DNA of 64,000 bases from Salinispora arenicola (GTDB taxonomy: Bacteria; Actinomycetota; Actinomycetes; Mycobacteriales; Micromonosporaceae): assembly GCF_006716065.1 (NCBI RefSeq), contig NZ_VFOL01000001.1, forward strand, positions 3,534,001-3,598,000, written 5' to 3'. Under the pieces are notes generated by a model. The model made no database searches and was not told where the DNA came from. It saw only the letters and a list, made by a program, of their open reading frames with translations. Within the stretch, counting starts at the first letter, position 1. Each line of letters begins with the position of its first letter. Positions 12,652-64,000 of the stretch are shown one piece after another. The position numbers and the translations under genes are program-made.

Positions 12652-12673
12652 GGTTCTGACCTCCTGAGATGGC

Positions 12674-25700: not shown

Positions 25701-28700
25701 GCGGAGACATGCTCATCGCGCCACGGCTCGCCGTCTCGAGCGATCCGGCGGGCGCGGCCGAGGCCTGGGATCCCACTGGGACGGTTCTGATCACCGGCGG
25801 TACCGGCCTGCTCGGTTCGCAGGTTGCCCGGCACCTGGTCGACCGGCACGGTGTCCGGCACCTCGTGCTCGCCGGCCGTCGCGGCCCTGCGGCCGAGGGC
25901 GCTGCCGAGTTGTACGCCGAGCTGACCGCCGCTGGGGCGCACGTCACCCTCGTGGCGTGTGATGTCGCCGACCGGGAGGCCGTACGGGCACTGCTGACCG
26001 ACATCCCTGCGGAGCACCCACTGACGGCTGTCGTGCACACCGCGGGTGTCCTGGAAGACCACACCGTTGAGCGGCTCGAACCGGAGCACTTGGCTGCGGT
26101 ACTGCGTCCCAAGGCCGACGCCGCGTGGCACCTGCACGAGCTGACCCGCGACCTCGGGCTCACCCACTTCGTGGTGTTCTCGTCGCTCGCCGGCACCGTC
26201 GGGACGCCCGGCCAGGCCAACTACGCCGCCGCGAACGCCTTTCTCGACGCCCTCGCCCAGGCCCGCCGGGCTGTCGGGTTGCCCGCCACCTCCCTCGCCT
26301 GGGGCCTGTGGTCGCAGGGCAGCGGGATGACCGGCCACCTCGACGAGGGGGCGCTGTCCAGGATGGCAGGGGCGGGCATCGCCGGCATCGACCTCGACCA
26401 GGGCTTAGCGATGTTCGACGCCGCGTTGCAGGCCGGCAGCCCGGTCACCGTGCCGGCTCGACTCAACCTGACGTCGCTTCGGGCGCTGTCCGCCGCGGGC
26501 ACGCTGCCGCCGATCTTCCAGCAACTGATCCGGGGCGTGCGGCGGGTAGCCACCGGGGCGGGGAATACCGGCCGGTTCGCCCAGCTGCCGGCCGCGGACC
26601 TCGGCCGGGAGATGCTCGATCTCGTCCGGCGCACGGCCGCCTCGGTCCTCGGCCACGCGACGCCGGACACCCTCGACACCCGGCGCGCGTTCACCGAGCT
26701 CGGCTTCGATTCCCTCACCGCGATCGACCTGCGTAACCGCCTGGGTGCGGCCACCGGACTGAGTCTGCCCGCGACCGCCGTGTTCGACTACCCCACGGTG
26801 CAGGACCTGACTACCTACCTCGCTGGGTTGCTCGGCGGCCCGGAGCGCATCGATGACGCGGCGACGGAGGTGAACGTCACAGTCGACGATCCGATCGTCA
26901 TCGTGGCGATGAGTTGTCGTTTCCCGGGTGGGGTGGCGTCTCCGGAGGATTTGTGGCGGCTGGTCGACGAGGGTGTGGACGCGATCGGCCCGTTCCCGGC
27001 GGACCGGGGCTGGGACCTCGCCGGCCTGTACGACCCCGACCCGGACCACCCCGGCACGTCCTACACCCGGGCGGGCGGCTTCCTGACCGACGCTGCCCTG
27101 TTCGACCCCGGCTTCTTCGGCATGAGCCCGCGCGAGGCTACTGCGATGGACCCGCAGCACCGGCTGCTGTTGGAGACGGCGTGGGAGGCCTTCGAGCGGG
27201 CCGGTGTCGACGTGGCCACTCTGCATGGCAGCGACACGGGCGTCTTCGCCGGGCTGATGCTGCACGACTACGAACGCGCATCCGGCTCGGCTCCGGAGAA
27301 CCTCGAGGGGCAGCTTGCCGTCGGCAGCGCCCCGAGTGTCGCCTCCGGCCGGGTCTCGTACACGTTTGGTCTCCAGGGTCCGGCTGTCACTGTTGATACG
27401 GCGTGTTCGTCGTCGTTGGTTGCGTTGCATTTGGCTGTTCAGTCGTTGCGGCAGGGTGAGTGTTCGTTGGCGTTGGCTGGTGGTGTGACGGTGATGGCGA
27501 CGCCGGGTTTGTTTGTTGAGTTTAGTCGGCAGCGTGGGTTGTCGGCTGATGGGCGGTGTCGGTCTTTTGCTGCGGGTGCTGATGGCACTGCGTGGGGTGA
27601 GGGGGTGGGTTGGCTTTTGTTGGAGCGGCGTTCTGATGCGGAGCGTCGTGGGCATCGGGTGTTGGCGGTGGTGCGGGGTTCGGCGGTGAATCAGGATGGT
27701 GCGTCGAATGGGTTGACTGCGCCGAATGGTCCTGCTCAGCAGCAGGTGATTCGGCGGGCGCTTGCTGGTGCTGGGTTGTCGTCGGATCAGGTTGATGTGG
27801 TGGAGGCGCATGGCACGGGGACTCGGTTGGGTGATCCGATTGAGGCGCAGGCGTTGTTGGCTACGTATGGGCAGGGTCGGGATCGTCCGTTGTGGCTTGG
27901 TTCGTTGAAGTCGAATATTGGGCATACTCAGGCTGCGGCTGGGGTGGCTGGTGTGATCAAGATGGTGCAGGCGATGCGGCATGGGGTTTTGCCTCGTACG
28001 TTGCATGTGGATGCTCCGACGCCTGAGGTGGACTGGTCGGCTGGTGCGGTTGAGTTGCTTGTTGATTCTCGGCCGTGGCCGGTGCGGGGTGAGCCGCGTC
28101 GTGCGGCGGTGTCGTCGTTCGGTATCAGTGGTACGAATGCGCATGTGATTCTTGAGGAGGGTGCCTCGCCGGTTTCCGGGTCGGATCTTGTTCTTGGGGC
28201 GGTGCCGTGGTTGTTGTCGGGTCGTACGCCGGAGGCGGTTCGGGCGCAGGCGGCTCGTTTGTTGACGGTTTCGGCTTCTGCGGAGGATGTGGGTTTCACT
28301 CTTGCGTCCAGGTCTGCTTTTGAGCATCGTGCGGTGGTGGTGGGCCGGGAGGGTTTGTTGTCTCCGTTGGGTGTGGAGTCTCCGGTGTCGGGTTCGTTGG
28401 CGGTGATGTTTACGGGTCAGGGTGCGCAGCGTGTGGGTATGGGTGCGGAGCTTTATGGGCGGTATCCGGTGTTTGCTGCGGCTTTTGATGAGGTGGCGGC
28501 GTTGTTGCCGGTGGATCTTGATGGTGATATGGGTTTGACGGGGGTGGCGCAGCCGGCGTTGTTTGCTTTTGAGGTGGCGTTGTTTCGGTTGGTGGAGTCG
28601 TGGGGTGTGTGTCCGGCGTTTGTGGGTGGTCATTCGGTGGGTGAGATTGCGGCGGCGCATGTGGCTGGTGTGTTGTCGTTGTCGGATGCGTGTTGTTTGG

Positions 28701-31700
28701 TGGAGGCGCGTGCTCGTTTGATGCAGGCGTTGCCTGCGGGTGGGGTGATGGTGGCTGTTGCTGCTTCGGAGGATGTGGTTCGGCCGTTGTTGTCGGGCGT
28801 GGTGGATATTGCTGCGGTTAATGGTTCGGAGGCGGTGGTGCTTTCGGGGGTTGAGGGTGCGGTGGAGGGTGTGGTTGCGGCGTTGGGTGGGGTGCGGTCG
28901 CGTCGTTTGGGGGTGTCGCATGCTTTTCATTCGGCGTTGATGGATCCGATGTTGGATGATTTTGCTGCGGTGGTGGAGGGGTTGTCGTTTGGTGTGGCTC
29001 GGATTCCGTTGGTGCGGGATGTGTCGTCGCCGGGGTATTGGGTGCGGCAGGTGCGGGAGTGTGTGCGGTTTGCTGATGATGTTGCGGCGTTGGCTGCTGC
29101 GGGTGTGTCGACGTTTTTGGAGCTTGGTCCGGATGGTGTGTTGTCGGGGATGGGTGAGGGGGAGTGGGTTCCGGCTCAGCGGCGGGATCAGGGTGAGAGT
29201 GTTTCGTTGGCGGTGGCGATGGGCCGGTTGTGGGCACGTGGAGTTGAGGTCGATTGGTCCACGTATTTCGCTGGGGCGCAGCGGGTGGATCTGCCGACGT
29301 ATGCTTTTCAGCACGAGCGCTATTGGCTTTCAGCGGCGCCTGTTCCGCAGGCCGACACCGAGTTCTGGGACCTTGTCGATCGGGGGGTGTTCGACGAGTT
29401 CGCTACCGACGAGTCCGAACGCGCCACCCTGCAGAAAGCGCTACCACTACTCGCCCAATGGCGACAGCGACACCAGGACCACGTCAACGGGCTTCGCTAC
29501 CGCGTGACCTGGGTGCCCGTCGGCGAACGCGGTTCCGTTCCGGCCGGCACCTGGCTCGTCCTTCTTCCGGCCCAGCTGACACCGCAGATCCGGCAGTGCC
29601 TGGACGCGCTTCCAGAGCACGTGTCCCTGACGCTCGACGCCCACGACCGGGCACAGGTCGCCGCCGCCCTGCGAGAGGCGGCCGGGACCCCGTACGCCGG
29701 TGTGCTGTCACTGCTGGCCCTCGGCTCGGCCGACGCCCTCGCCAGCACCATCACGCTCGCCACCCTTGTGCAGGCGCTCGGCGACGCCGCCCTCGCCGCG
29801 CCCCTGTGGTGTGTCACCAGCGGCGCCTGCGGACCGGATGAGATCACGGCGCCCCGGCAGGCCATGCTGTGGGGATTCGGCCGGGTCGCCGCCGTGGAGC
29901 ACCCCGACCGCTGGGGCGGCCTCGTCGACATCCCCGCCGAACTCGGCCCCGACGGGTGGCAGCGCTTCGCCGCGGCGCTCGGCGGCCGGGAGGATCAGGT
30001 CGCGATTCGGAACTCGGGAACGTACGGCCGCCGCTTCGTGCACGCCACCAGCACTGGCCGCGACTGGCAGCCCCGCGGGACCGTGCTCGTCACCGGCGGC
30101 ACTGGTGCGCTCGGCGTCCACGTCGCCCGGTGGCTCGCCACGCAGGGCGCCGATCACCTGATCCTCACCAGCCGGCGCGGCGACCGGGCGGCCGGCGCCG
30201 CTGATCTCGTGGCGGAGCTGTCGGCCCTGGGCGCCACCGCCACCATCGCCCGCGCGGACGCCGCCGACCCGGCCGCCATGCGGGATCTGCTCGCTGATTT
30301 CCCGCTGACCGCAGTGGTCCACGTCGCCGGCGTGCTCGACGACGGTCTGATCGACACCTTGACACCGGACCGATTCGCCGCAGTGACCCGGGCCAAGGTC
30401 GACGCCGTCGAGACCCTGTACGAGCTGACCCGCGACCGGGATCTGGACGCGTTCATCGCCTTCTCCTCGATCGCTGGAGTGGTCGGTGCCGAGGGGCAGG
30501 GCAACTATGCGGCCGCCAACGCCGCTGTGGACGCACTGATCGACACGTATCGGACGGCGGGCAGCCCCGCCGCAGCCGTCGCGTGGGGCCCGTGGGCCGG
30601 CGACGGTATGGCGCACGGTGAGATCGGTCGGCAACTCGGCGAGCGCGGGCTGATCCCGATCGAACCCGCCGTCGCGCTCACGGCGCTCGGCCGGGCCCTC
30701 AACCAGGGGGCTCACACCATCGCCCAACTGGCCTGGGACCGATTCCGGCCGGGTTTTGGCGTGACGCGACTCTTCGACGGCGTGCCCGAGGCCGCAGCCC
30801 TGCCCGGCGCTGCCGTCGGTGAGGGCCTGGCCGCGCAGCTGGGCGGGCTGTCGCATGCCGAGGCGGATCAGCTCGTTGCCGAGCTGGTCCGCACGGAGGC
30901 CGCCGTCGTGCTCGGCAGTGCCGGCGCGGCCACGGTGGCTCCCGACCGGGCGTTCCGGGACCTCGGCTTCGATTCGCTGGCCGCAGTCCAGCTGCGCAAC
31001 CGGCTGGGCCGGGCAACCGGGCTGGTTCTGCCCACCACGCTGGCCTTCGACCACCCGACGCCGGCCCTGCTCGCCGCTCATCTGCTGCGCGAGCTGACCG
31101 GAAGCCCGGCGGACGTCGGCACCGACGCCGTCGTCGCGGGCGTCGCTGACGATCCGATCGTCATCGTGGCGATGAGTTGTCGTTTCCCGGGTGGGGTGGC
31201 GTCTCCGGAGGATTTGTGGCGGTTGGTCGACGAGGGTGTGGATGCGATCGGCCCGTTCCCCCGCGACCGGGGTTGGGACGTCGATGGGCTATACCACCCC
31301 GACCCGGACCACCCCGGTACCACGACTGTGCGGGAGGGCAGCTTCCTCGCCGGCGCGGGTGACTTCGATGCGCCGTTCTTCGGGATCTCGCCGCGCGAGG
31401 CGGCTGCGATGGACCCGCAGCAACGGCTGCTGTTGGAAACGGCGTGGGAGGCCTTCGAGCGGGCCGGTGTCGACCCGGCATCCCTGCGCGGCAGTCAGGC
31501 CGGTGTGTTCGTCGGCAGTAACGGTCAGGAATACGCCACGCTGGTGCAGGCGGCGAGCGACGAGTACGAGGGCTTCCGCGCTACCGGTGCCACGGCCAGC
31601 GTCATGTCCGGTCGCATTGCGTACACGTTCGGGTTCGAAGGTCCGGCTGTCACTGTTGATACGGCGTGTTCGTCGTCGTTGGTTGCGTTGCATTTGGCTG

Positions 31701-34700
31701 TTCAGTCGTTGCGGCAGGGTGAGTGTTCGTTGGCGTTGGCTGGTGGTGTGACGGTGATGGCGACGCCGGGTTTGTTTGTTGAGTTTAGTCGGCAGCGTGG
31801 GTTGTCGGCTGATGGGCGGTGTCGGTCTTTTGCTGCGGGTGCTGATGGCACTGCGTGGGGTGAGGGGGTGGGTTGGCTTTTGTTGGAGCGGCGTTCTGAT
31901 GCGGAGCGTCGTGGGCATCGGGTGTTGGCGGTGGTGCGGGGTTCGGCGGTGAATCAGGATGGTGCGTCGAATGGGTTGACTGCGCCGAATGGTCCTGCTC
32001 AGCAGCAGGTGATTCGGCGGGCGCTTGCTGGTGCTGGGTTGTCGTCGGATCAGGTTGATGTGGTGGAGGCGCATGGCACGGGGACTCGGTTGGGTGATCC
32101 GATTGAGGCGCAGGCGTTGTTGGCTACGTATGGGCAGGGTCGGGATCGTCCGTTGTGGCTTGGTTCGTTGAAGTCGAATATTGGGCATACTCAGGCTGCG
32201 GCTGGGGTGGCTGGTGTGATCAAGATGGTGCAGGCGATGCGGCATGGGGTTTTGCCTCGTACGTTGCATGTGGATGCTCCGACGCCTGAGGTGGACTGGT
32301 CGGCTGGTGCGGTTGAGTTGCTTGTTGATTCTCGGCCGTGGCCGGTGCGGGGTGAGCCGCGTCGTGCGGCGGTGTCGTCGTTCGGTATCAGTGGTACGAA
32401 TGCGCATGTGATTCTTGAGGAGGGTGCCTCGCCGGTTTCCGGGTCGGATCTTGTTCTTGGGGCGGTGCCGTGGTTGTTGTCGGGTCGTACGCCGGAGGCG
32501 GTTCGGGCGCAGGCGGCTCGTTTGTTGACGGTTTCGGCTTCTGCGGAGGATGTGGGTTTCACTCTTGCGTCCAGGTCTGCTTTTGAGCATCGTGCGGTGG
32601 TGGTGGGCCGGGAGGGTTTGTTGTCTCCGTTGGGTGTGGAGTCTCCGGTGTCGGGTTCGTTGGCGGTGATGTTTACGGGTCAGGGTGCGCAGCGTGTGGG
32701 TATGGGTGCGGAGCTTTATGGGCGGTATCCGGTGTTTGCTGCGGCTTTTGATGAGGTGGCGGCGTTGTTGCCGGTGGATCTTGATGGTGATATGGGTTTG
32801 ACGGGGGTGGCGCAGCCGGCGTTGTTTGCTTTTGAGGTGGCGTTGTTTCGGTTGGTGGAGTCGTGGGGTGTGTGTCCGGCGTTTGTGGGTGGTCATTCGG
32901 TGGGTGAGATTGCGGCGGCGCATGTGGCTGGTGTGTTGTCGTTGTCGGATGCGTGTTGTTTGGTGGAGGCGCGTGCTCGTTTGATGCAGGCGTTGCCTGC
33001 GGGTGGGGTGATGGTGGCTGTTGCTGCTTCGGAGGATGTGGTTCGGCCGTTGTTGTCGGGCGTGGTGGATATTGCTGCGGTTAATGGTTCGGAGGCGGTG
33101 GTGCTTTCGGGGGTTGAGGGTGCGGTGGAGGGTGTGGTTGCGGCGTTGGGTGGGGTGCGGTCGCGTCGTTTGGGGGTGTCGCATGCTTTTCATTCGGCGT
33201 TGATGGATCCGATGTTGGATGATTTTGCTGCGGTGGTGGAGGGGTTGTCGTTTGGTGTGGCTCGGATTCCGTTGGTGCGGGATGTGTCGTCGCCGGGGTA
33301 TTGGGTGCGGCAGGTGCGGGAGTGTGTGCGGTTTGCTGATGATGTTGCGGCGTTGGCTGCTGCGGGTGTGTCGACGTTTTTGGAGCTTGGTCCGGATGGT
33401 GTGTTGTCGGGGATGGGTGAGGGGGAGTGGGTTCCGGCTCAGCGGCGGGATCAGGGTGAGAGTGTTTCGTTGGCGGTGGCGATGGGCCGGTTGTGGGCAC
33501 GTGGAGTTGAGGTCGATTGGTCCACGTATTTCGCTGGGGCGCAGCGGGTGGATCTGCCGACGTATGCTTTTCAGCACGAGCGCTATTGGCTTTCAGCGGC
33601 GCCTGTTCCGCAGGCCGACACCGAGTTCTGGGACCTTGTCGATCGGGGGGTGTTCGACGAGTTCGCTACCGACGAGTCCGAACGCGCCACCCTGCAGAAA
33701 GCGCTACCACTACTCGCCCAATGGCGACAGCGACACGCCCAGAAGCAGGCCCGCGACGAGTGGCGATACCGAGTCGACTGGGCACCCGTCCCCGAGCTCC
33801 CCGCCCGGCTCCGCGGCACCTGGCTCGTCCTGGCACCCGCCGGGGACGCACCAATGGACTGCCTCGAGGCCCTCACCGCCGCGGGCGCCCAACCTGTGCT
33901 CATGATCGGTGACGACCTGCCCGGTGCGGCGGCGGACGTGACCGGAGTGCTGGCCCTGCCGTCCCTGGACCCCGCCGCCCTCGCGGCGACAGTCCGGACC
34001 CTCGGCGCCTCCGGAATCCGCGCACCACTGTGGGTGCTCACCCGCAACGCCACCGGCCAGGACGGGCCGCCCGCGTCTGGACAGGCTGCGGTGTGGGGCC
34101 TGGGCCGGGTCGTCGCCCTCGAGCACCCGGACCGCTGGGGCGGGCTCGTCGACCTGCCCGAAACCATGGATGCCCACGTGTGGGCCCGGGTGGCGGTCGC
34201 GCTCAGCGGCGGGGAGGACCAGGTGGCCGTGCGCCCGACCGGTCTCGTTGCCCGGCGGATCGTGCCTGCCCCGACCCAGCCCGCTGAGCCCTGGCAGCCC
34301 ACGGGAACCGTGCTCGTCACCGGCGGCACCGGTGCCCTGGGCAGCCACGTCGCCCGGGAACTGGCCGCCGGGGGAGCCGACCACCTGATACTCGTCAGCC
34401 GGCGCGGCCTCGACGCCCCCGGCGCGCGGGAGCTGGCCGCCGAACTGGCGGCCACCGGCACCACGGTCACGGTGGCCGCCTGTGACATCGCCGACCGGGA
34501 GGCGCTGACCGGCCTGCTCGCCGCACTGCCGGACGACCAGCCGCTGACCGCCGTGCTGCACGCGGCCGGGACGCTGCACGACGCCACTGTGCAGACCGTG
34601 ACCGCCGAGCATGTACGCGACGTACTGCGTCCGAAGGTGGACGGGTACGCCGCCCTGCGCGACGTGACCCGCGACCATGACCTGACCGCGTTCGTGGCGT

Positions 34701-35572
34701 TCTCCTCGCTCGCGGGCGTTGTCGGACAGCCGGGGCAGGGCGTGTACGCGGCAGCCAACGCGGCCCTGGACGCCATGGCACAGGCGTACCGCGCCGAAGG
34801 GGTACCGGCGCTCTCCGTCGCCTGGGGGCCGTGGGCCGAGGGGGGCATGGCAACGGCGCACGGCGATCGGCTGCGTAGCCACGGCATCATGCCGCTGCCG
34901 ACCGGTCCTGCCCTCGTCGCGCTGTGGCAGGCGATCACCAGGGACGAGGCCAACGTGACCATAGCCGACCTGGACTGGGAACGGTTCATTGCGGCGTACG
35001 GCGTCAGCCCGGCCATCGCGGCCCTCGCCCCGGCCCCGCCAGTCCTGGCAGCTCCGGCACGTTCACTGTCCGAACAGTTGGCCGCGGAGCCGGAGGCTGA
35101 GCGCGACCGCCTGCTCGTTCGGCACGTCCAGCAGGAGGCCGCCGCCCTGCTGGGATACGCCGATCCCGCGGCCGTCACGGCAGGAGCCGCATTCCGGGAC
35201 CTGGGCTTCGATTCGCTGGCCGCCGTCCAGCTGCGCAACCGGCTCGCCGCCGCGACCGGGCTCGACCTGCCCACCGGCCTGGCGTTCGACCATCCCACTC
35301 CGGTCGCCTTGGGCGCGTTCCTGCGGAGCCAGCTGATACCGGCCCACTCGGACGCCGGTCCGCTGGCCACCCTGGACCGCTTGACGGAGGACCTCTTCCG
35401 AGACGACTCGGCAGGCCCGGATCCGCAGCTGCGCGAGCAGCTCTCCGAACGGCTTGAGGCCGTGCTGAACCGACTCCGGGCACAGCCCCGCGGCTTTGAC
35501 GAGGCCACGTTGGACGCCGCTGACGACGACGAGGTCTTCCGGATTATCGACGAGGATCTCGGCCTTTCCTGA
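13721..35572 (+). CDS. Modular type I polyketide synthase PKS1: loading module and modules 1-4
   Basis: The 7283-residue protein starts at GTG 13721, overlapping the hydrolase stop. Domain order is KSQ-AT-ACP; KS-AT-DH-KR-ACP; KS-AT-DH-KR-ACP; KS-AT-KR-ACP; KS-AT-KR-ACP, followed by a helical C-terminal docking region (about 35350-35572). Absence of an N-terminal coiled coil and the Gln-for-Cys loading KS (residue 175) show that it begins the assembly line. Extenders by AT signature are malonyl (HAFH) except module 2, methylmalonyl (YASH). Expected product on the last ACP is an acetate-primed pentaketide: a methyl-branched diene then two beta-hydroxyl-derived units. Modules 3 and 4 are near copies with a 4263-bp period. 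Leu3039 and Leu4229 are TTA codons. Confidence 0.96.
13757..16660 (+). other. Loading module: KSQ-AT(malonyl)-ACP
   Basis: The KS active-site motif reads DTGQSSS in place of DTACSSS; the Gln codon is 14243-14245. KSQ domains decarboxylate malonyl-ACP to acetyl-ACP. The AT has GHSIG and HAFH (residues 722-725), so malonyl-CoA is loaded and an acetyl starter results. The ACP carries GLDSL with the phosphopantetheine Ser at residue 938. Confidence 0.92.
16690..21680 (+). other. Module 1: KS-AT(malonyl)-DH-KR-ACP
   Basis: KS has DTACSSS, EAHGTGT and NIGHTQ. AT has GHSIG and HAFH, so malonyl. DH has the intact [10 protein letters not shown] (HxxxGxxxxP) and DAALH. KR has TGGTGTLG, the catalytic FSS and NYAAAN, and LAD at the LDD position, keeping the B-type Asp. 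ACP has GFDSM. The unit should be a trans double bond from a D-hydroxyl. Confidence 0.9.
20198..20224 (+). repeat. Hexanucleotide repeat in the module 1 DH-KR linker
   Basis: GTGCCG is repeated four times and ends with GTG, coding for alternating Val-Pro (VPVPVPVPV) in the linker between DH and KR. It is a slippage-prone linker repeat without an evident function. Confidence 0.9.
21724..26840 (+). other. Module 2: KS-AT(methylmalonyl)-DH-KR-ACP
   Basis: AT has GHSQG and YASH (residues 3389-3392), the methylmalonyl signature, the only canonical one in the window. DH motif is [10 protein letters not shown], with Asp where Gly is usual, but with the catalytic His and a DAALH second motif. KR has [11 protein letters not shown] and NYAAAN, so B-type and active. 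ACP has GFDSL. The unit should be an alpha-methyl alkene. Confidence 0.88.
22835..22837 (+). promoter_or_regulatory. TTA codon in PKS1 (Leu3039)
   Basis: An in-frame TTA in the KS of module 2, within a gene that otherwise uses CTG/CTC/TTG; a second one is at 26405-26407 (Leu4229). Possible bldA-type dependence. Confidence 0.5.
26887..31110 (+). other. Module 3: KS-AT(malonyl)-KR-ACP
   Basis: KS is canonical. AT has GHSVG and HAFH, so malonyl. There is no DH: the AT is followed by a KR structural subdomain starting with [16 protein letters not shown] has [11 protein letters not shown] and NYAAAN, so B-type. ACP has GFDSL. A beta-hydroxyl (D) is expected. Bases 27377-29473 are repeated in module 4. 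Confidence 0.9.
27377..29473 (+). repeat. KS-AT duplication, copy in module 3 (2097 bp)
   Basis: From the KS active-site region to just past the AT this block matches 31640-33736 base for base in everything I could compare; translations in all frames agree. Wobble positions are mostly T or G, unlike the C/G wobble on both sides. Confidence 0.92.
31150..35340 (+). other. Module 4: KS-AT(malonyl)-KR-ACP
   Basis: Organised as module 3. KS from its active site onward and the whole AT are the duplicated block. KR differs from that of module 3: [11 protein letters not shown] keeping the B-type Asp, and VYAAAN. ACP has GFDSL. A second beta-hydroxyl (D) is expected. The docking region follows. Confidence 0.9.
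31640..33736 (+). repeat. KS-AT duplication, copy in module 4 (2097 bp)
   Basis: Second copy of the block at 27377-29473, offset 4263 bp. The start of the KS (from 31148, matching 26885) shares the same offset with a few changes, so the duplication unit was a whole module that diverged in places. Confidence 0.92.
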
Positions 35573-35715
35573 TCGGCACACCATCAGACCAGGAAGACGC
35601 CGATTACCTCGGGATGGCCCGGCCGTGGACAACCGCAACTGCGTCCGCCCCGGTCCGGCTGATTGGCTCGTAGCGGAACCCAGACACCTGTCGAGCGGTT
35701 GAGGAGACACGGACG

Positions 35716-36984: not shown

Positions 36985-37033
36985 CTCGCCGGACCGCGAA
37001 TCCTGACCCGTCAGCAGCGATCGGAGGCAGACC

Positions 37034-43000: not shown

Positions 43001-43210
43001 TCCGTCCTGGCCGCAGCCCCGCACGACAGCGATGTGGACCGCCAACTCGTCCGCCGCCTGCGCAAGATCCTCGACGAGCGCACCCGGACGTTCCACCCGG
43101 CCGGCGGCTCGGCCGAGCCCCAGCACTTCGCCGACGCACTCGAGGCCGCCGGGGCCGAGGACGTCCTCAAGCTCATCGACGCCCGCCTGGGCCGCCGTAC
43201 CCGCCCCTGA
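37034..43210 (+). CDS. Modular type I polyketide synthase PKS2: module 5
   Basis: The 2058-residue protein starts at GTG 37034 after GGAGG. An N-terminal coiled-coil docking helix ([16 protein letters not shown] and on to residue 35) should receive the chain from PKS1. Domain order is KS-AT-DH-ER-KR-ACP, a fully reducing module, then a C-terminal helical docking region (about 42960-43210) facing PKS3. KS, AT, DH, ER, KR and ACP motifs are all intact, so a saturated two-carbon unit is expected. The AT segment 38633-39441 and the ER-to-KR segment 40941-42161 carry the T/G-wobble codon style and are copies of sequence in other modules, so the gene is a mosaic. Leu396 is a TTA codon. Confidence 0.96.
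38219..38221 (+). promoter_or_regulatory. TTA codon in PKS2 (Leu396)
   Basis: An in-frame TTA in the KS of module 5, another possible bldA-type control point. Confidence 0.5.
38633..39441 (+). repeat. AT block, third copy, in module 5 (809 bp)
   Basis: This matches 28382-29190 and 32645-33453. The only difference I found is T at 39049 in place of C (silent). The block spans the malonyl AT almost exactly; sequence on both sides is unrelated at the DNA level. Confidence 0.92.
40941..42161 (+). repeat. ER-KR block, copy in module 5 (1221 bp)
   Basis: This covers the whole ER and the first third of the KR and matches 62744-63964 in all bases compared. Wobble positions are T/G-rich, while the flanking DH and the rest of the KR are C/G-rich. 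Confidence 0.92.
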
Positions 43211-43260
43211 CCCGCCCACTGCCCGCTCGCCTCCCGCGCGCAGAGAATGGTTGGAGACCC

Positions 43261-53787: not shown

Positions 53788-53848
53788 GTGCACGTCCGCC
53801 GCTTCCTCCGCACCCTGGCCGACCGTCCGGACGAAGGACTAAGAGCAG

Positions 53849-56800
53849 ATGACGAACGAAGACAAGCTGGTCGACTACCTGCGCTGGGTGACGGCCGACC
53901 TCAAGGAGGCCCGGGAACAGGTACGGGCCGCCAAGCAGCGAGAGAACGAGCCGCTTGCCATCGTCGGCATGTCCTGCCGGCTGCCCGGCGGGGTCAGCAG
54001 CCCGGAGCAGCTCTGGCAACTAATCGACGCGGGAGTGGATGCGATCTCCCGTTTCCCGGCCGACCGCGGGTGGGATGTCGGTGACGTGTTCGATCCGGAA
54101 CCAGGCCGGCCTGGCAAGTCGTACGTCCGCGAGGGTGGCTTCCTCGACGCACCAGGCGACTTCGATGCGGCGTTCTTTGGCATGAGCCCCAAGGAGGCCG
54201 TCGCCACTGACCCGCAGCAGCGGCTGCTGCTGGAGACGGCGTGGGAGGCTCTGGAACGGGCGGGCCTCGACCCGCAGGCCCTGCGGGGCAGCCAGACCGG
54301 GGTCTTCGTCGGCAACAACGGCCAGGACCACGTCATCGGACTCTCCCGGGCCCCGGTTGAGCTGTCCGGCTATACCGTCAGCGGCGCCACGGCCAGCATC
54401 CTGTCCGGGCGGGTGTCGTACACGTTCGGCTTCGAGGGGCCCTCCCTGGCAGTCGACACCGCCTGTTCGTCGTCGCTGGTCGCGCTGCACGTCGCGGGGC
54501 AGGCGCTGCGGGGTGGCGAGTGTTCGCTTGCCCTGGTTGGTGGGATCACGGTGATGACCACCCCGACGTTGTACGTGGGCTTCAGCCAGCAGCGCGGGCT
54601 GTCGGCGGAGGCGCGGTGCAAGGCGTTCTCGGACGACGCCGACGGCACCTCGATGGCGGAGGGGGTCGGCTGGCTGGTGCTCGAGCGACTCTCCGACGCC
54701 CAGCGCCTCGGCCACCGGGTGCTCGCGGTCGTCCGGGGCAGCGCGATCAACCAGGACGGCGCGTCCAACGGCATGACCGCCCCCAGCGGACCCGCTCAGC
54801 AGCGGGTGCTCAGCCGGGCGTTGGCCAGCGCCGGCCTCGCGGCGTCGCAGGTCGACCTGGTCGAGGCGCACGGCACCGGCACCGCGCTCGGTGACCCGAT
54901 CGAGGCGCAGGCGGTGCTGGCCGTCTATGGCAAGGACCGACCTGCGGGGCGGCCGCTGTGGATGGGATCGCTGAAGTCGAACATCGGCCACACCCAGGCG
55001 GTCGCCGGGATCGCGGGCATCATCAAGGCGGTGCAGGCCATCCGGCACGGCGTGCTGCCGCGGACCCTGCACGTCAAGGAGCCGTCGACCCAGGTCGACT
55101 GGAGCGCCGGCGACGTCGAATTGCTGACCGAGCCGAAGGCGTGGCCGGAGACCGGGCAGCCACGCCGGGCGGGAGTGTCCTCTTTCGGCGCGAGCGGCAC
55201 GAACGCGCACGTCATCCTGGAGCAGGCGCCCGATGTCGACGCTGAAGCGGATTCTGGGACCGATGCGCCGTCGCCGGTGGTGCCTTGGCTGCTGTCAGCC
55301 AGGTCGGAGCGGGCGCTGCGGGGTCAGGCGGATCGTCTGCTGGCGCACGTGACGGCTCATCCGGAGCTGTCCCCGCGGGACGTGGCCTACTCGCTGGTGC
55401 GCGGCCGGGCAGCCTTCGAGCACCGCGGTGTGGTGTTGGGCGCGGACCGTGACGAGCTGCTGTCCGGGCTGGCTGAGCTTGCTGCGGGCCGAGCGGCGCC
55501 GGGGGTGGTGACTGGGCGGGGCTCGGGAGGCTTGGCTGTCCTGTTCACCGGACAGGGCGCCCAGCGCACCGGGATGGGCCGTGAGCTGTACGACACGTTC
55601 CCGGTCTTCGCGGCCGTCTTCGACGCGGCGTGTGCGCAGCTGCGGCCGGGACTGAAGGACGCTGTCTTCAGCGGCGGCGCCGAGCTCTCCGAGACGGGGT
55701 GGGGGCAGCCGGCGCTGTTCGCGTTCGAGGTGGCGCTGTTCCGCTTGGTCGAGTCCTGGGGGGTACGCCCCGAGGTGCTTGGTGGCCACTCCGTGGGCGA
55801 GATCGTCGCTGCTCATGTGGCGGGTGTGTGGTCGCTGGAGGACGCTGCCCGGCTGGTGTCGGCCCGTGCGGAGTTGATGCAGGCGCTGCCGTCCGGTGGG
55901 TCGATGGTCGCCGTGGCGGCCAGCGAGGACGAGGTGCGTACGGCCATCGCCGGTTTCCCGGGCGTGGACGTCGCTGCAGTGAACGGCCCCGCGTCGGTCG
56001 TGGTGGCCGGCGCGACTGACGCGGTCCGGGTAGTGGTGCAAGAGCTGGCCGCCCAGGGGCACCGGACCAAGGCACTCCGGGTGAGTCACGCCTTCCACTC
56101 GTCGCTGATGGAGCCGATGCTGGCGGCGTTCGGGGAGGTGCTGCGCTCCGTGACGTTCCACCATCCCCGAATTCCGCTGCTGTCACTGGTCAGCGGTACG
56201 CTCGGCGACCCGGCAGTGTCCACTGCAGAATATTGGGTGCGGCATGCTCGGGAGGCGGTGCGGTTCGCCGACGGGATCCAGGCCGCCGCGCAGGCCGGGT
56301 GCACCACGTTCCTGGAGCTGGGCCCGGACGCGGCGCTGGCGGGGATGGGCCGCGATGGCCTGCCGGACGCGGCATGGGTGGCATCCGTACGGAAGAACCG
56401 TCCGGAGGTGCTCGCAACGCTGGAGGCGGCCGCCCGCGTCGCTGTCCAGGGAGCGACGGTCGACTGGGCTGCCCTGACGCCGGGCGGACGCATGGTGGAC
56501 CTGCCCACCTACGCCTTCCAGCACGAGCGCTTCTGGCTCGAGTACGACGTGCAGCCCCGGGTTCCCGACGGTGTGGACTGGCGCTACCGGGTCGGGTGGA
56601 CGCCCGTGCCCGACCCGGACGCTCCGGCGGTACTCGCGGGCACCTGGCTGGTGGTCATCCCGTCCACCGTCACGCGGGAGGTGGACGTCTGGGCTCGTAT
56701 GGTGACCGGCGGTCTCACCGCGGCCGGCGCTCGTACCGAGGTCCTGCGGATTCCGGCCGGCTCCGGACGCGCCGATCTGGCGACCCTGCTGGACGGGCCC

Positions 56801-58495
56801 GGGGAGGCAGCCGGCGTACTGAGCCTGTTGGCCTTGGCGGAGGGTCCCACCGACGCCGTGGTGCCGGCTGGTCTTGCCCTCACCATGGCCCTCGTGCAGG
56901 CACTCGGTGACACCGGCCGGGAGGCGCCGCTGTGGTGTGTGACCCGGGAGGCGGTGCACACCTCCGTCGTCGAGGACCAGGCGATGATCTGGGGATTCGG
57001 CCGGGTGGCCGCCCTCGAGCACCCCGGGCGCTGGGGTGGTCTCGTCGACCTGCCCGCAACGCTCGATCCCGCCGCGGGCCGACGCCTGGCCGCGGTCCTC
57101 AGGGGCGCGACGGGCGAGGACCAGGTTGCCGTCCGCGCCGACAGCCTGTACGCGCGGCGCCTCACGGCGGTGACCGAGCCCGTCTCGGACACCAGCGCCT
57201 GGGAGCCCTCCGGAACGGTGCTGATCACCGGGGGCACCGGTGGTCTCGGGGCACACGTCGCTCGCTGGCTCGCCGGCCGCGGTGCCCGGGACCTGCTGCT
57301 GGCCAGCCGCTCAGGGCCGGCGGCGCCCGGCGCGGCCGAGCTGGTGGCGGAGCTGGCGGAGCTTGGGGCCGCGGCCACCATCGCCGCGTGCGACGTCGCC
57401 GACGCGGACGACCTCGCGGCTCTGCTGGCGACCGTCCCGGCCGACCGGCCCCTGGGAGCCGTCTTCCACGTCGCCGGCCGCATCGAGACGACGGCCCTCG
57501 ACGCGACGACCCCCGAGATCCTGGCCGAGGTGCTGGCCGGCAAGGTGGCCGGCGCTCGTAACCTGGCCGCCCTGGCCGGTGCTGTCGACCGGTTCGTGCT
57601 GTTCTCGTCGGTCGCCGGGGTGTGGGGCAGCGGTGGGCACGCGGCGTACGCCCCGGCCAACGCCTACCTGGACGCCCTGGCCGAGCGGCGCCGGGCGGCC
57701 GGCCTGCCCGCTCTCGCGATAGCCTGGGGCCCCTGGGCCGACGGCGGCATGAGCGCCGGGAAGGACACCAGGCGGGAGTCCGCCCGGCACGGTCTGCCGG
57801 TGATGCCGACCCGGGCCGCGCTCGGTGCCCTGGGCGCGGCCCTGGACGGCGGCGTGCCGAGCGTGACCGTCGCCGACGTGGTGTGGGACCGGTTCGTGCC
57901 GCTGTTCACCAGCACCCGGCCGAGCCGCCTGTTCGCCGACGTGACCGTGGCGGCGCAGCCCGAACCGGACGACCACGCCAGCCCCTGGCTGGACCGGCTG
58001 CGGGGTCGCAGCGGGTCGGACCGCGACGCCGAACTGCTGGCCCTCGTGCGGCACGAGGTGGCACTGACCATCGGCCACGTCGACGACCGGGCCGTGGAGA
58101 TCGATCAAGCTTTCCGGAACCTCGGCTTCGACTCGATGGCGGCCGTCGAGCTGCGCGACCGGATCGCCACCGGCACCGGCCTGACCCTGGCTAGCAGCCT
58201 CGTCTTCGACCACCCGACGGTGCAGTCGCTGGCACGGCACCTCGCTGGCGAGCTCGGCCCGGACGGCGGCGATCCGGTCGCCACCGTGCTGGCCCAGCTG
58301 GACGAACTGGAGGCGGCAATGGCCGGGCTGGCCGGTGGTGACGCCGTCCGGGAGTCCATTGAGCCGCGGTTGCAGGCCCTGCTCGCCGGCCTGTCCCGCC
58401 CGGTCGGGCACTCGGCGGAGGCGGTGGCCGACCACCTCCGTACAGCGAGCGTCGAAGACCTCTACGCCTTCGTAGACCAAGAATTCGGCCGATGA
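53849..58495 (+). CDS. Modular type I polyketide synthase PKS4: module 8
   Basis: The 1548-residue protein starts at ATG 53849, 61 bp after PKS3. An N-terminal docking coiled coil ([18 protein letters not shown]) is followed by KS-AT-KR-ACP and a C-terminal docking region ending [16 protein letters not shown] has DTACSSS and NIGHTQ. AT has GHSVG and HAFH, so malonyl. KR lacks LDD, having RIETTA in that place, and has Trp1259, His1264 and the catalytic Tyr1267, the A-type pattern (A2 by the His), so an L-hydroxyl is expected, in contrast with the B-type KRs elsewhere here. ACP has GFDSM. There is no DH, so the hydroxyl should stay. Confidence 0.95.
53948..58260 (+). other. Module 8: KS-AT(malonyl)-KR(A-type)-ACP
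   Basis: Domain bounds, approximately: KS 53950-55230, AT 55530-56540, KR 57210-57800, ACP 58040-58260. The KR structural half lies between AT and KR without a DH. This is the only A-type KR in the window. Confidence 0.9.
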
Positions 58496-58554
58496 CCCCG
58501 GCGCCTCCGGTGCGCCCGCGTCCGCACCTGCCCTGATTGGTGGTAGCTCAACCC

Positions 58555-61500
58555 ATGCCTGAGGACCAGAAGCTCGTCGAGTATTTCAAGCGCGTCACGG
58601 CCGACCTCTATGAGACCCGTGAGCGGCTGCGCGAGGCCGAGGAGCGTGACACCGAGCCGATCGCGATCATCGGCATGGCGTGCCGTTTCCCCGGAGGCGT
58701 TCGGTCGCCCGAGGACCTGTGGCAGCTGGTGGTCGACGGCGTTGACGCCGTGTCCCCGTTCCCGGCCGACCGTGGCTGGGACGTCGACGCCCTCTACGAT
58801 CCAGACCCCGAACGGACCGGCACGGCGTACGTGCGCGAGGGCGGTTTCCTGGACGCGGCCGACGCCTTCGACCCGGTGTTCTTCGGGATCAGCCCGCGTG
58901 AGGCAAATGCCATGGACCCGCAGCACCGCCTGCTGCTGACCACCGGCTGGGAGGCGCTCGAACGGGCCGGCCTCGACCCGACGGGGCTGCGGGGCAGCCG
59001 TACCGGCGTCTTCGCTGGCGTCACCCACAACGACTACATCTCCCGGCTCGGGACCGCCCCCGAAGGGTACGAGGGCCAGCTGCTCACCGGCGGCGCCGTG
59101 AGCGTGGCGGCCGGTCGTGTGTCGTACACGTTCGGCTTCGAGGGCCCAGCGGTCGCGATCGACACAGCTTGCTCCTCCTCGCTGGTGTCACTGCACCTGG
59201 CCGCCCGGTCGCTGCGGTCCGGCGAGAGCACCCTGGCCCTGGCCGGTGGCGCGACCGTGATGGCCACCCCGTCGACGTTCATTGAGTTCAGCCGACAGCG
59301 CGGGCTGGCGGCGGACGGCCGGTGCAAACCGTTCGACGAGTCGGCCGACGGTACGTCGATGGGCGAGGGGGCGGGCTGGTTGGTGCTCGAACGGCTCTCC
59401 GACGCGCACCGCAACGGACATGAGGTGCTCGCGGTGGTGCGCGGCTCGGCGATCAACCAGGACGGGGCCTCGAACGGGCTGACCGCCCCGAGTGGCCCCT
59501 CGCAACAACGGCTCATCCGCCAGGCGCTGGCGGGCGCGGGACTCGCCGCCCGCCAGGTCGACGTGGTCGAGGCGCACGGCACCGGCACCGCGCTCGGGGA
59601 TCCGATCGAGGCGCAGTCCCTGCTGGCAACGTACGGTCGGGATCGGCAACGCCCCCTGTGGATCGGCTCCGTGAAGTCCAACATCGGACACGCGCAGGCC
59701 GCCGCTGGTGTCGCAGGGATCATCAAGACCGTTATGTCGATGCGCCACGGGGTGCTGCCCCGCACGTTGCACCTACAGGCTCCGACCAGCCGTGTCGACT
59801 GGTCCGCGGGCTCGGTGGAGCCGTTGCGGGAGGCACAGCCGTGGCCGGAGACCGGCGAGCCGCGCCGGGCGGGTGTCTCCGCTTTCGGGGCAAGCGGGAC
59901 GAATGCACACATCATTCTGGAGCAGGCGTCGCGGCCACAGGTGCGGGCCGCCGCGGCCGCACCGCCGGTGGTGCCGGTCGTCCCATGGGTGCTGTCGGCC
60001 AGGTCGGAGCAGGCGTTGCGGGACCAGGCGCAGCGTCTGCTGACCCATGTGACAGTCCACCCGGAGCTGTCCCCGGCCGATGTCGGCTTCGCACTGGTGA
60101 CCAGGAGGGCCGGGTTCGAGCACCGGGGCGTGATCCTGGGCGCGAGTCGTGACGATCTGTCGCGTGGTGTGGCGGCGCTGGCCGCCGGCAAAACGGCACC
60201 GGGAGTCGTGACTGGTCGCGCGTCCAATGGGCTGGGCGTGTTGTTCACCGGACAGGGTGCCCAGCGTGCCCGGATGGGATACGAGCTGTACCAGGCCTTT
60301 CCCGTGTTCGCCGCCGCCTACGACGCGGCGTGCGAACTGTTGCGTCCGGGATTGAAGGACGTGGTGTTCGCCGGTGGGCCCGAACTGGCCGGGACCGGGT
60401 GGGCGCAGCCGGCGTTGTTCGCCTTCGAGGTCGCGCTGTTCCGGCTGTTCGAGTCGTGGGGAGTGCGCCCGGACCTGGTCGGTGGGCACTCTGTGGGCGA
60501 GATCGCCGCCGCACACGTGGCGGGGATGCTGTCGCTGCAGGACGCTGCCCGGCTGGTGAGCGCGCGTGCCGAGTTGATGCATGCGCTGCCCTCCGGCGGC
60601 GTGATGGTGGCGGTGTCGGCTCCCGAGGACGAGGTACGTGGGCTGCTTGTCGAACGCCACGGTGTGGACATCGCAGCGGTGAACGGGCCCGCCGCGGTAG
60701 TGCTTGCCGGTGCAGCGGAACCGGTGGGTGAGGTCGTCGGGGTGCTCGCTGGGCGTGGGCACAAGACCAGAGCCCTGACCGTCAGTCACGCGTTCCACTC
60801 ACCGTTGATGGAGCCGATGCTCGAAGAGTTCGCTGCGGTGTTGCGCACGCTGACGTTCAGACAGCCGGCGATCGGCCTGGTTTCGATGCTCAGCGGCACG
60901 GTCGGGGATCCGGAGATGGCGTCACCGGAATACTGGGTGCGGCATGCCCGCGCGACGGTCCGCTTTGCCGACGGAATCCGGGCTGCCGCCGACATCGGCT
61001 GTGACACCTTCCTCGAACTGGGCCCGGATGCGGTGCTCGCCGGGATGGGACGCGAGTGCCTGCCCGAGGCACAGTGGCTCCCGTCCGTACGCGCCAACCG
61101 GCCGGAGGTCCCCCACGTGCTGGAGGCGGTCGCGCGGGCGGCCGCCCGGGGCGCGCCGGTCGACTGGGTGTCCTGGCTGCCGGGCGCGCGGGTAGCCGAC
61201 CTGCCCACATACGCGTTCCAGGAGGAGCGGTTCTGGCTCGACGACCCGAATCCCCGCGGGGACGCCACGGCGCTAGGCCTACAGGCGACCGGCCACCCCC
61301 TGGTCACCGCGGAAATCGCGCTACCCGCCGCGGAGAGCGTTCTGCTCACCGGGCGGCTCTCCCGGCACAGCCACCCGTGGGTGGCCGATCACAGTGTCGC
61401 GGACACCGTCCTGGTGCCGGGTACGGCGCTGGTGGAGCTGGCCTTCCGCGCAGGCGAGGTGGCCGGGTGCGGCCGGATCGAGGATCTCACCTTTCAGACG

Positions 61501-64000
61501 CCGCTGACCATGCCCGTGACCGGTGGCATGCTGCTACAGGTCGTTGTCGGTGCTCCCGGTGAGGGCGGTGTCCGGGAGGTGACCGTTCACTCACGGCCCG
61601 AGTCGGCGGAGGATGCCCTGGAGGAGGAGTGGACCTGCCACGCGACCGGGCTGCTCGGCCCGGTGGCGACCACCGTCGCGGATGCCTCGCCCGGCCCGTG
61701 GCCGCCGGCGGATGCCCAGCCGCTGGCCATCGGCGACTTCTACCCACGGCTCGCCGAGGCCGGCTACCACTACGGCCCGGCGTTCCAGGGCCTGACCTCG
61801 GCCTGGCAGCGCGACGACGACGTGTACGCCGAGGTCGCCCTGCCCGCTGCGGCGGCGGGGGACGCAGGCCGCTTCGGCATCCACCCGGCCCTGCTCGACG
61901 CGGCCCTGCACGGGATGCTCGCCCCGACCGGCGAGCGGATGACGGATCACGGCCCGACCCGGCTCCCGTTCGCCTGGACGGGCGTGCAGTTGCACGCGGC
62001 CGGTGCCACAGCCGTGCGGGCGACGCTGACGACGGTCTCCGCCGACTCGGTTGCCGTGCGCCTGTACGACGCAACGGGCGGCCTGGTGCTGACCGCCGAC
62101 TCGATCGTCTCGCGGGAGGTTACCGCCGATCAGCTGACGCCGTCGCAGGCCCGCGGACACCACCGGTCGTTGTTTCGGCCGGAGTGGGTGCCGTTCCCCG
62201 TGCCCGGGGCCCGGGCCGGCGAGGGCCGCTGGGCCTCGCTGGGCGACACCACGGTCACCCGTGCCCTGTCCGCCTCGGGCACGCCGATCCGTCCTCTGTC
62301 GAGCTGGCGGGCAGTGTCCGACTTCGTCGCGGGAGGCGCCACCGCTCCTGATGTCATCGTGTACGCCCTCGATGGTGTGACGGTAGCTGGGGACACCGTC
62401 GCCGCTCAGGTCCGGTCCGTGACCGCCGAGGTGCTGGACGTCGTGCAGTCGTGGCTGGCCGACGAGCGGTTCGGTGCCACCCGGATGGTCGTGGTGACCC
62501 GCAACGGTGTCGTGGTGGAGGGCACCGAGACGCCCGACCTGGTCCACGCCCCACTGTGGGGGCTGTTGCGCTCGGCCCAGTCGGAGAACCCGGACCGGTT
62601 GCTGCTCGTGGACGTCGACGACACCGCGGAGTCCGCCTCGTTGCTGTCGGTCGTGGTCACCACGGCCATGGCGGCGGGGGAGCCCCAGGTGGCCGTGCGC
62701 GCTGGACAGGTCAGCGTCGCCCGGTTGGCTCGGATGCCGATCGGCGGGTTGCTTGATGTGCCTGGTGGTGTGTGGCGGCTTGGGGTGGGTGAGGTGGGGG
62801 TGTTGGAGGGTTTGGTGTTGGAGGGGGTTGAGGTTGTGGCGTTGGGGGTGGGGGAGGTGCGGGTGGCTGTGCGTGCGGGTGGTGTGAATTTTCGGGATGT
62901 GTTGATGGCGTTGGGTGTGTATCCGGGTGAGCCGAGTCTTGGTGCTGAGGGTGCGGGTGTGGTGGTTGAGGTTGGTCCGGGGGTGTCGGGGTTGGGGGTG
63001 GGTGATCGGGTGTTTGGTGTGTTTGGTGGGGCGTTTGGTTCGGTTGTGGTGGCTGATCGTCGTGGGTTGGTGCGGATTCCGTGTGGTTGGTCGTTTGAGC
63101 AGGCTGCTGCGGTGCCGGTGGCGTTTTTGACGGCGTGGTATGGGTTGGTGGATTTGGCGGGGTTGCGTCGTGGTCAGTCGGTGTTGATTCATGCGGCTGC
63201 TGGTGGTGTGGGTATGGCTGCTGTTCAGGTGGCGCGGTTTTTGGGTGCGGAGGTGTATGCGACTGCGAGTCCTTGGAAGTGGGGGGAGGTTGAGGCGTTG
63301 GGGGTTGCGGGGGATCGGTTGGCGTCGTCGCGGACGTTGGAGTTTGCGGATCGGTTTCCGAAGGTTGATGTGGTGCTTAATTCGTTGACTGGTGAGTTTG
63401 TTGATGCGTCGCTTGGTTTGTTGGTGTCGGGTGGGTGTTTTTTGGAGATGGGTGTGGCTGATGTGCGGGAGGGGGTGGGTGTTGGTTATCGGCCGTTTCA
63501 GTTGTTGGAGGCTGGTTATGATCGTTTGGGGGAGATGTTGGTGGAGCTTGTGGGTTTGTTTTCGGTGGGGGAGTTGGTGTTGCCGCCGGTGCGGGTGTGG
63601 GATGTGCGGCGTGCGGTGGAGGCGTTTCGTTTTGTGTCGCAGGCTCGGCATGTGGGCAAGGTGGTGTTGCGGATGCCGCGGGTGGTGGATCCGGATGGGA
63701 CGGTGTTGATTACTGGGGCGTCGGGGATGTTGGGTGGTGTTGCGGCTCGTTATGTGGTGGGTCGGGGTGTGCGTCGTGTGTTGTTGGTGAGTCGTGGTGG
63801 TGTGTCTGGTGAGTTGGTGGCGGAGTTGCGGGGGGCGGGTGCGGTGGTGACGGTGGTGGAGTGTGATGTGGCTGATCGGGGGGTGTTGGCTGGGGTGCTT
63901 GCGGGGGTGCCGGTTGAGCATCCGTTGACGGCGGTGGTGCATACCGCCGGCACACTCGACGACGGCGTGATCGGCTCGCTCACCCCCGAACGACTCGACA
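58555..64000 (+). CDS. Modular type I polyketide synthase PKS5: module 9 (3' end outside window)
   Basis: The ATG at 58555 lies 59 bp after the PKS4 stop; the frame is open to the window edge (1815 codons visible). The N-terminal docking coiled coil begins [20 protein letters not shown] has DTACSSS and NIGHAQ. AT has GHSVG and HAFH, so malonyl. DH has [10 protein letters not shown], with Asp for the usual Gly, and DAALH. ER and the start of the KR are a copy of the PKS2 block, with [11 protein letters not shown] in the ER and LDD in the KR. Full reduction is expected if the DH works. The rest of KR, the ACP and perhaps more modules or a thioesterase lie to the right. Confidence 0.94.
58654..64000 (+). 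other. Module 9: KS-AT(malonyl)-DH-ER-KR... (cut by window edge)
   Basis: Domain bounds, approximately: KS 58654-59925, AT 60235-61235, DH 61280-62110, ER 62744-63690, KR from 63700. The KR is B-type by LDD. No ACP is visible before the edge. Confidence 0.9.
62744..63964 (+). repeat. ER-KR block, copy in module 9 (1221 bp)
   Basis: Second copy of 40941-42161, offset 21803 bp, again with T/G wobble and sharp edges. The right edge falls within the KR, just after the LDD motif. Confidence 0.92.

Follow-up and report, generated by a model that had tools for sequence, protein, structure and literature searches.

The question raised by the modular polyketide synthase (PKS) of Salinispora arenicola is why nearly all codons end in G or T in several domain-sized blocks of its coding sequence, as against fewer than half elsewhere in the synthase. 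The PKS lies in a window of 64,000 nucleotides (the whole stretch of DNA that was analysed; C1:3534001-3598000 in a genome assembled as one contig of 5,632,046 bases, its 16S matching that of genome G043 at 100% over 1516 bases), in which the PKS occupies 5 genes from 13721 to beyond the window end and contains 10 KS domains; positions below are those of the window unless another locus is named, and module numbers are our own. Pfam matches to AT, KR, DH, ER and ACP domains place the AT inside the modules, i.e. the PKS is a cis-AT assembly line. We conclude that the islands of G/T-ending codons very probably belong to the GRINS, domain-sized repeats of cis-AT PKS that are probably homogenised by gene conversion between modules and kept in G and T (the keto letters, as opposed to the amino letters A and C) on the coding strand.

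G/T-ending islands coincide with near-identical repeats

Within the five islands (in blocks A1, A2, S, B1 and B2; Table 1), 97-100% of the third codon letters were G or T. In the PKS coding sequence outside the blocks (13,723 codons) the share was 47% (A 5.0, C 47.7, G 39.5, T 7.8%), whereas islands A1 and B1 together (1044 codons) had A 0.2, C 1.7, G 61.5 and T 36.6% at third positions. Over the whole repeated blocks, the G/T share was 93% for A1 and A2 (A 1.6, C 5.3, G 57.9, T 35.2%), 98% for B1 and B2, and complete for S (38633-39441), in which 269 of the 269 codons end in G or T (0 A, 0 C). A two-state segmentation of third positions placed the islands at 27376-29311, 31654-33574, 38635-39439, 40945-42139 and 62748-63942, each with a score of 322-670 bits, and a three-state segmentation shifted the starts of the first two by 12 nt. 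Both the segmentation and the strings of third letters put the switch of style within a few codons. The contrast in codon endings and its abrupt edges, both claimed in a preliminary description of this DNA, are thus borne out. The window contains 1504 matches to a pattern of 36 consecutive G/T letters at three-base spacing (either strand, any frame), compared with 0 in 100 shuffles. A weak stretch at 55249-55369 (41 codons, 18 bits) is without a close repeat (nearest copy family 73%; nearby skewed windows 0.59-0.81).

Runs of at least 8 G/T letters amounted to 220, 291 and 428 bases per kb in A1, S and B1, compared with 19, 25 and 50 after random recoding by the cluster's own codon usage. E. 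coli Chi was rejected as a candidate, showing no consistent enrichment (A1 0.52, S 0 and B1 0.84 per kb, compared with 0.23, 0.16 and 0.60 after recoding). A looser motif, GNTGGTGG, was enriched in the islands, as expected of any GT-rich word.

The islands are repeats of one another. A1 and A2 are identical over 2097 nt, B1 and B2 over 1221 nt, and S matches A1 (28382-29202) at 99.5% over 821 nt, with a difference within the block (C at 28798 in A, T at 39049 in S). In 50-codon bins clear of the block, the DNA identity of the A1 and A2 flanks was 0.65 before and 0.49 after; that of the S and A1 flanks was 0.43 and 0.61, and that of B1 and B2 was 0.57 before, the right flank of B2 being at the window end and not binned. 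Such sharp tracts of identity between diverged flanks may stem from gene conversion. Among windows with both skews above 0.25, 217 of 234 had a partner of at least 95% identity, compared with 9 of the 1437 other windows. The shared A tract extends 162 nt beyond the right edge of the island and is written there in normal style, and the remaining repeat edges (A, B and S on the left; B and S on the right) lie 0-22 nt from the skew edges. The block limits given in the preliminary description agree with most skew edges, except at the unskewed tail of 27377-29473. The style is indeed common to different domains, as had been noted, but to more than the two types named: the KS C-terminal part with AT, AT alone, and ER with the start of KR.

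Pfam matches over the A blocks are KS, KS_C and AT, and the start of A1 lies just ahead of the Cys motif of the KS active site (27395). Over 38633-39439, blocks A1, A2 and S encode identical AT protein, which carries GHSVGE and HAFH. HAFH is likewise found in modules 1, 8 and 9 and in the loading part, while modules 2, 6 and 7 carry YASH, VAAH or YAAH; we take HAFH to be the malonyl-type and YASH the methylmalonyl-type AT motif. The KS of module 5 shares 80% protein identity with the KS of A, yet is in normal style (G/T 0.39), and the sequence after the module 5 AT is also in normal style. It seems that module 5 received the AT alone, in what resembles a natural AT swap, the flanks being otherwise diverged. 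For engineers, block S marks junctions where nature appears to have swapped an AT cleanly.

As a separate observation, six matches to the Rfam ASpks antisense RNA lie within KS coding sequence on the minus strand (22682-22756, 27842-27910, 32105-32173, 44293-44367, 54902-54976 and 59608-59676), two of them in the A islands. These matches may simply reflect conserved KS sequence.

The islands have the features of GRINS

The preliminary description knew of no standard explanation for such codon islands, which was mistaken: GRINS have been described since 2021 (PMC10394414, PMC9899208, PMC11907408). GRINS have been defined with 150-nt windows, 80% identity, 500 bp and skews of 0.15 (PMC9899208), or with GC and TA skews above 0.25 (PMC10394414). 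We applied the definition to 13721-63999, with the best identity by blastn instead of pairwise2 and a 5-window mean. Five of five regions were repeats of at least 500 bp with more than 80% identity in the same PKS (840-2160 nt); at 90% identity the five regions persisted (780-2070 nt), and no further region of 13721-63999 reached the repeat threshold. All five were skewed, with mean absolute GC skews of 0.41-0.61 and TA skews of 0.52-0.63, and the setting is an assembly-line PKS with AT domains in the modules. Because all five regions have both the repeats and the skews, we call the islands GRINS.

In the accounts of later papers, GRINS are likewise repeats of about 1 kb in one PKS with identity above 80-90% and skews above 0.15-0.25; they too lie in cis-AT PKS of an actinomycete, where the proposed role is gene conversion and AT diversification. 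None of the defining features sets the Salinispora islands apart, and their alphabet is nearly pure, as the 0 A/C in 269 third positions of S illustrates. The present analysis describes the bias as a change from A/C to G/T that includes amino acid changes, a comparison with GRINS made through those later papers. A close parallel is the pair of GRINS in modules 3 and 6 of the azalomycin F synthase, also near-identical skewed repeats in two modules of one synthase; there they lie in a KS-AT-DH-KR tetradomain, whereas the Salinispora blocks cover KS-AT, AT alone or ER-KR (PMC9899208). The available parts of the GRINS literature give no cause of the skew (PMC10394414, PMC9899208, PMC11907408).

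Table 1. PKS genes, repeat blocks and the intervening P450 gene in the window
Feature	Position	Strand	Content
Block A1	27377..29473	+	KS C-terminal part, KS-AT linker and AT of module 3; island ~27374-29311
Block A2	31640..33736	+	Counterpart of the A1 segment in module 4; island ~31640-33574
Block S	38633..39452	+	AT domain of module 5 (Pfam AT match); island 38633-39439
Block B1	40941..42161	+	ER and first part of KR of module 5 (ADH_N, ADH_zinc_N, KR); island 40943-42139
Block B2	62744..63964	+	ER and first part of KR of module 9; island 62746-63942
PKS gene 1 (7283 aa)	13721..35572	+	Loading part and modules 1-4
PKS gene 2 (2058 aa)	37034..43210	+	Module 5, KS-AT-DH-ER-KR-ACP
PKS gene 3 (3508 aa)	43261..53787	+	Modules 6-7; no island called
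PKS gene 4 (1548 aa)	53849..58495	+	Module 8; single weak 41-codon stretch
PKS gene 5 (open frame 2373 aa, extends past window)	58537..63999	+	Module 9
P450 gene	35716-36984		Between PKS genes

Upstream of the PKS, an IS4-type transposase gene (9340-10734, minus strand) lies beside a Trp-halogenase-like gene (10897-12729, minus strand). Also outside the PKS genes, 5611-6360 has a GC skew of -0.37 and a TA skew of -0.36; it is flanked by a P450-like open reading frame (3753-5294, minus strand) and by a large open reading frame from 6544. Downstream of the PKS, L002:3661-7173 encodes a protein of 1171 aa with AMP-binding, carrier and NAD_binding_4 domains, a layout that we take to be that of a carboxylic acid reductase.

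Skewed islands in other assembly-line genes

The genome was scanned in 116 pieces covering 2.364 Mb of 5.63 Mb, namely the window itself, 15 pieces placed mostly at KS sites with their flanks (hence non-random) and 100 spaced pieces. Fifteen keto islands were called, of which 12 lie in assembly-line genes: 5 in the window, 5 small ones (67-122 codons) in contig-end PKS genes (L003, L004 and L006) and 2 at L010. At the contig end, a KS match is truncated by the start of the record (G000:C1:1-72), and the contig seems to open inside a PKS gene. All 12 islands are keto on the coding strand, 7 of them lying in genes on the plus and 5 in genes on the minus strand; the skew therefore follows the gene and not one chromosome strand. 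In the scanned pieces, the true frames of assembly-line genes yielded no A/C-ending island. The other three keto islands are a short one in an open frame of 628 aa (L123), a frame with mainly T/C-ending codons (L132) and, at L143, a frame opposite a tandem-repeat protein (6429-8246, minus strand) with near-identical repeats. Of 33 'amino' calls, 11 lie opposite keto islands (7 in the window, 4 at L010), and the remaining 22 are mostly C-rich by counts.

The two L010 islands (7776-8757 and 14948-15929) are 100% identical over 982 nt in the G/T-ending style, and lie in adenylation domains of neighbouring nonribosomal peptide synthetase (NRPS) and PKS-NRPS genes. They recall the NRPS genes wolG1, wolG2 and dsaG, in which skew patterns are common to duplicated genes (PMC9205934). 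There, the skew was read as a sign of recent divergence and identity falls within the final adenylation domains (PMC9205934), whereas at L010 the skewed, fully identical stretch is itself in adenylation domains.

Similar islands are found in other actinomycetes. A keto-only pattern of the KS active site gave 48 matches in 84,980 species genomes, all actinomycetes by title; 36 of these loci have an island that reaches both 60 codons and 60 bits, and the other 12 lack one. The query is keto-only by design, so that it gives no frequency of islands and the absence of other phyla means little. A mirror case was seen in Streptomyces sp. NBRC 109706 (L059:3038-3952; KS C-terminal part and linker, in a PKS frame), with third letters A 68, C 205, G 32 and T 0, and no close copy of it among the loci compared.

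The bias reaches amino-acid-changing positions

The direction of the bias was examined in homologues of the skewed KS and AT segments, leaving out KS hits with a query coverage below 85%, AT hits with one below 80%, and L064 and L073 as duplicate loci. The 98 KS rows comprised 15 skewed (G/T at least 0.90), 39 normal (at most 0.60) and 44 intermediate, and the 88 AT rows 6, 44 and 38, respectively; intermediate rows were dropped. Substitutions were counted against normal homologues with protein identity above 60% for KS (29 of 39) and above 45% for AT (20 of 44). In amino-acid-changing codons, the ratio of keto letters gained to lost was 1.80 for the KS part (29 normal homologues), compared with 1.03 among normal KS themselves (standard deviation 0.22, range 0.54-1.50), and 3.33 for AT (20 homologues), compared with 1.02 (standard deviation 0.16, range 0.83-1.46). 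The other skewed segments gave ratios of 1.17-3.82 (13 KS) and 2.57-4.11 (3 AT).

When all skewed segments were pooled (14 KS, 13 of them besides the window's, and 4 AT; codon positions 1-2), the median forward/reverse ratios for KS and AT were 3.70 and 3.99 for C>T, 2.14 and 2.90 for C>G, 1.97 and 3.94 for A>G, and 3.28 and 3.74 for A>T, compared with 0.84 and 1.21 for A>C and 1.27 and 1.09 for G>T. C>T, C>G, A>G and A>T exceeded the 95th percentile of the controls in 10, 11, 10 and 12 of the 14 KS, respectively, compared with 3 of 14 for A>C and 4 of 14 for G>T; among the 4 AT, each keto-gaining class did so in 4, A>C in 1 and G>T in 0. As judged from these alignments, the bias is one that reaches amino-acid-changing sites and not the wobble position alone. 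This enrichment argues against codon preference, and against deamination alone.

Damage to an exposed coding strand, for instance in an R-loop, could produce C>T and A>G by deamination of C and A. Both classes are enriched, and the islands have their keto letters on the coding strand whichever way the gene runs, as such a cause would predict. However, transitions are insufficient: at four-fold sites pyrimidines make up 0.593 of the letters in the background but 0.374 in the islands, and the transversions C>G and A>T are likewise enriched, which refutes a model of transitions only. Bypass of abasic sites can yield C>G and could rescue part of the model, and we regard strand damage as an unlikely source of the alphabet. 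Selection on translation, in which G/T-ending codons tune the translation or folding of the domains, agrees with a bias that peaks at third positions, but it would leave unexplained the amino acids shifted toward G/T codons at positions 1 and 2 in the aligned homologues, and paralogous KS and AT of the same cluster are in normal style. The composition of the islands relative to the rest (Val 15.9 vs 9.0%, Thr 2.8 vs 6.2%, Pro 4.2 vs 6.2%) points in the same direction, though the domain types are mixed. We consider such selection highly improbable.

No donor cluster was found for the islands

The preliminary description offered two sources for the shared style, a donor gene cluster with other codon habits or a biased process acting on repeated copies. 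Import from one foreign cluster, followed by copying, would explain why blocks of different domains share a single style with sharp edges. On the other hand, among the matches listed for the 159 other genomes of the genus (searches that score few candidates per genome), the best for block A was 71% over 1-1952, or 82% over the first 783 nt, and the best for block B was 72% over 874 nt. Within the own genome but outside the window, block A reached at best 71% (about 790 nt) and block B 80% (55 nt), and the own-genome adenylation islands did not turn up in the A and B searches. The segment 28382-29202 had no match among 72,556 plasmid records (near mode).

Agreement at four-fold sites points the same way. 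With pairs above 97% DNA identity excluded, as in the pair comparison of DNA with protein below, skewed KS agreed in 0.685 of letters compared with 0.626 expected if independent (100 pairs, conserved sites); the values were 0.486 and 0.455 for normal KS (741 pairs), and 0.694 and 0.632 for skewed AT (12 pairs). Since agreement is barely above independence, the style is common and the text nearly independent, and a single donor is very unlikely. Of the two earlier suggestions it is the biased process that is supported, by the coincidence of skew and repeat, by the adenylation pair at L010 and by the amino-acid-changing positions that are affected.

The differences that remain between copies are also informative. 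In keto-skewed 150-nt windows, G/T differences made up 18 of 48 at identity of at least 97%, 25 of 76 at 92-97%, 1604 of 3118 at 85-92% and 6786 of 13,358 at 75-85%; in unskewed windows they made up 1 of 32, 28 of 486, 105 of 1210 and 585 of 6232, respectively. Windows with 100% identity, below 75% identity or with middling skew were left out, and the windows are non-independent. By a rough scaling with hand-set base compositions, G/T relative to C/T differences at 85-92% were 0.88 in keto and 0.39 in unskewed windows. These differences fit a keto state that is kept during drift, or separate recoding of each copy, and are at odds with a decaying relic. A G/T-ending codon exists for every amino acid, while Met and Trp are without an A/C-ending codon, a constraint that may explain why keto letters form the usual alphabet.

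Finally, an artefact of assembly or editing (collapsed repeats, synthetic sequence), which two base-for-base identical block pairs might suggest, is scarcely credible given that the flanks differ, that S differs from A inside the block and that 36 of the 48 keto-pattern loci from actinomycete assemblies carry such an island, although polishing could have overstated the identity of the A and B pairs.

A proposed mechanism: gene conversion with a continuing drive toward G and T

We propose that GRINS copies would be homogenised by gene conversion, i.e. RecA-type homologous recombination between paralogous modules, while a continuing pressure on the DNA would change A/C to G/T on the coding strand by transitions and transversions alike. 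Recoded copies would be better recombination partners through higher DNA identity at a given protein identity, and their GT-rich single strand may be favoured by RecA-type recombinases. At protein identity of 0.75-0.80, DNA identity was 0.806 in skewed pairs (52), 0.757 in normal pairs (78) and 0.688 in mixed pairs (176); a shared alphabet therefore raises the homology between copies. RecA and Rad51 have been reported to bind GT repeats preferentially (PMC5948810). No literature joining polyketide synthase, RecA and GT-rich DNA was found.

Several points weigh against the GRINS reading and its proposed mechanism. No orthologous cluster was found in 200 other genomes or in the 159 other genomes of the genus, and conversion between sister strains was therefore not observed. 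The recombination advantage of skewed copies is a correlation. The homologues and pairs compared are non-independent, several skewed rows being from one species. The window's own KS taken alone has A>C 188 vs 71 and C>G just 344 vs 260, so that it is the pooled set and the AT that carry the clean four-way pattern. The contents of the original 2021 GRINS paper (doi 10.1073/pnas.2100751118) are taken from the accounts of later papers.

A possible role of NucS

As a mismatch nuclease that replaces MutS-MutL in actinobacteria, NucS could be what leaves the G/T alphabet as its footprint, a suggestion that we make tentatively and consider unlikely as it stands. NucS prefers G-T, G-G and T-T mismatches and acts less strongly or not at all on other mismatches; its loss increases recombination between non-identical sequences, tenfold where they share 90% identity (PMC8228993). 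Its substrates are exactly the keto-keto mismatches, which come from keto/amino differences between copies and never from G/T or A/C differences. Every keto/amino difference would produce a keto-keto mismatch in one heteroduplex out of the two that can form, and copies within one alphabet would recombine unseen by NucS, however far they drift in it. Exchange with a normal copy would be attacked in the heteroduplex that holds the GT-rich coding strand, presumably the strand preferred by RecA-type recombinases. Such a trap could account for the two-letter alphabet, the island edges, the G/T residual differences, the shift in amino acids and the concentration of GRINS in actinobacteria.

The genome encodes NucS (PF01939 at C1:2673855-2674217, E 8.0e-41). 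MutS_V (PF00488) had no match in the genome, in a search in which 11 of 14 controls matched; MutL was not searched for. Keto/amino differences between KS at protein identity of 0.75-0.85 numbered 93 per kb in skewed pairs (74), 198 in normal pairs (84) and 257 in mixed pairs (197), and of these 257, 228 expose the coding strand of the island and 28 the other orientation. These counts partly follow from any two-letter alphabet and are consistent with the NucS model rather than proof of it.

Other evidence speaks against NucS. Loss of nucS in Streptomyces raises transitions 67-fold and transversions 2-fold (PMC11109965). A 2026 preprint found converted regions of M. tuberculosis enriched in T>C and suggested that NucS is less active in recombination, adding that repair asymmetry could reshape the base composition of paralogous regions (PMC13061034). 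Repair promoted by M. smegmatis NucS is independent of homologous recombination, according to the title of a 2024 paper (PMC11551767), and a separate study reported repair in short patches (PMC11551744). In our searches for literature on NucS, polyketides and gene conversion, only PMC13061034 was found, and its available part is silent on GRINS. GRINS have been reported in cyanobacteria and firmicutes as well, in the available parts of the GRINS literature. The NucS model alone also does not choose a direction. Cyanobacteria and firmicutes use MutS.

Implications

Taken together, the results add a new member of GRINS in Salinispora. The kind was already known, but the bias seen in Salinispora suggests that the skew arises at the level of DNA; the link to NucS is unproven. 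GRINS are believed to accelerate diversification among assembly-line enzymes. If the drive from A/C to G/T is tied to mismatch recognition, it would be testable by a single deletion of nucS, and it would help to explain why actinobacteria have most GRINS.

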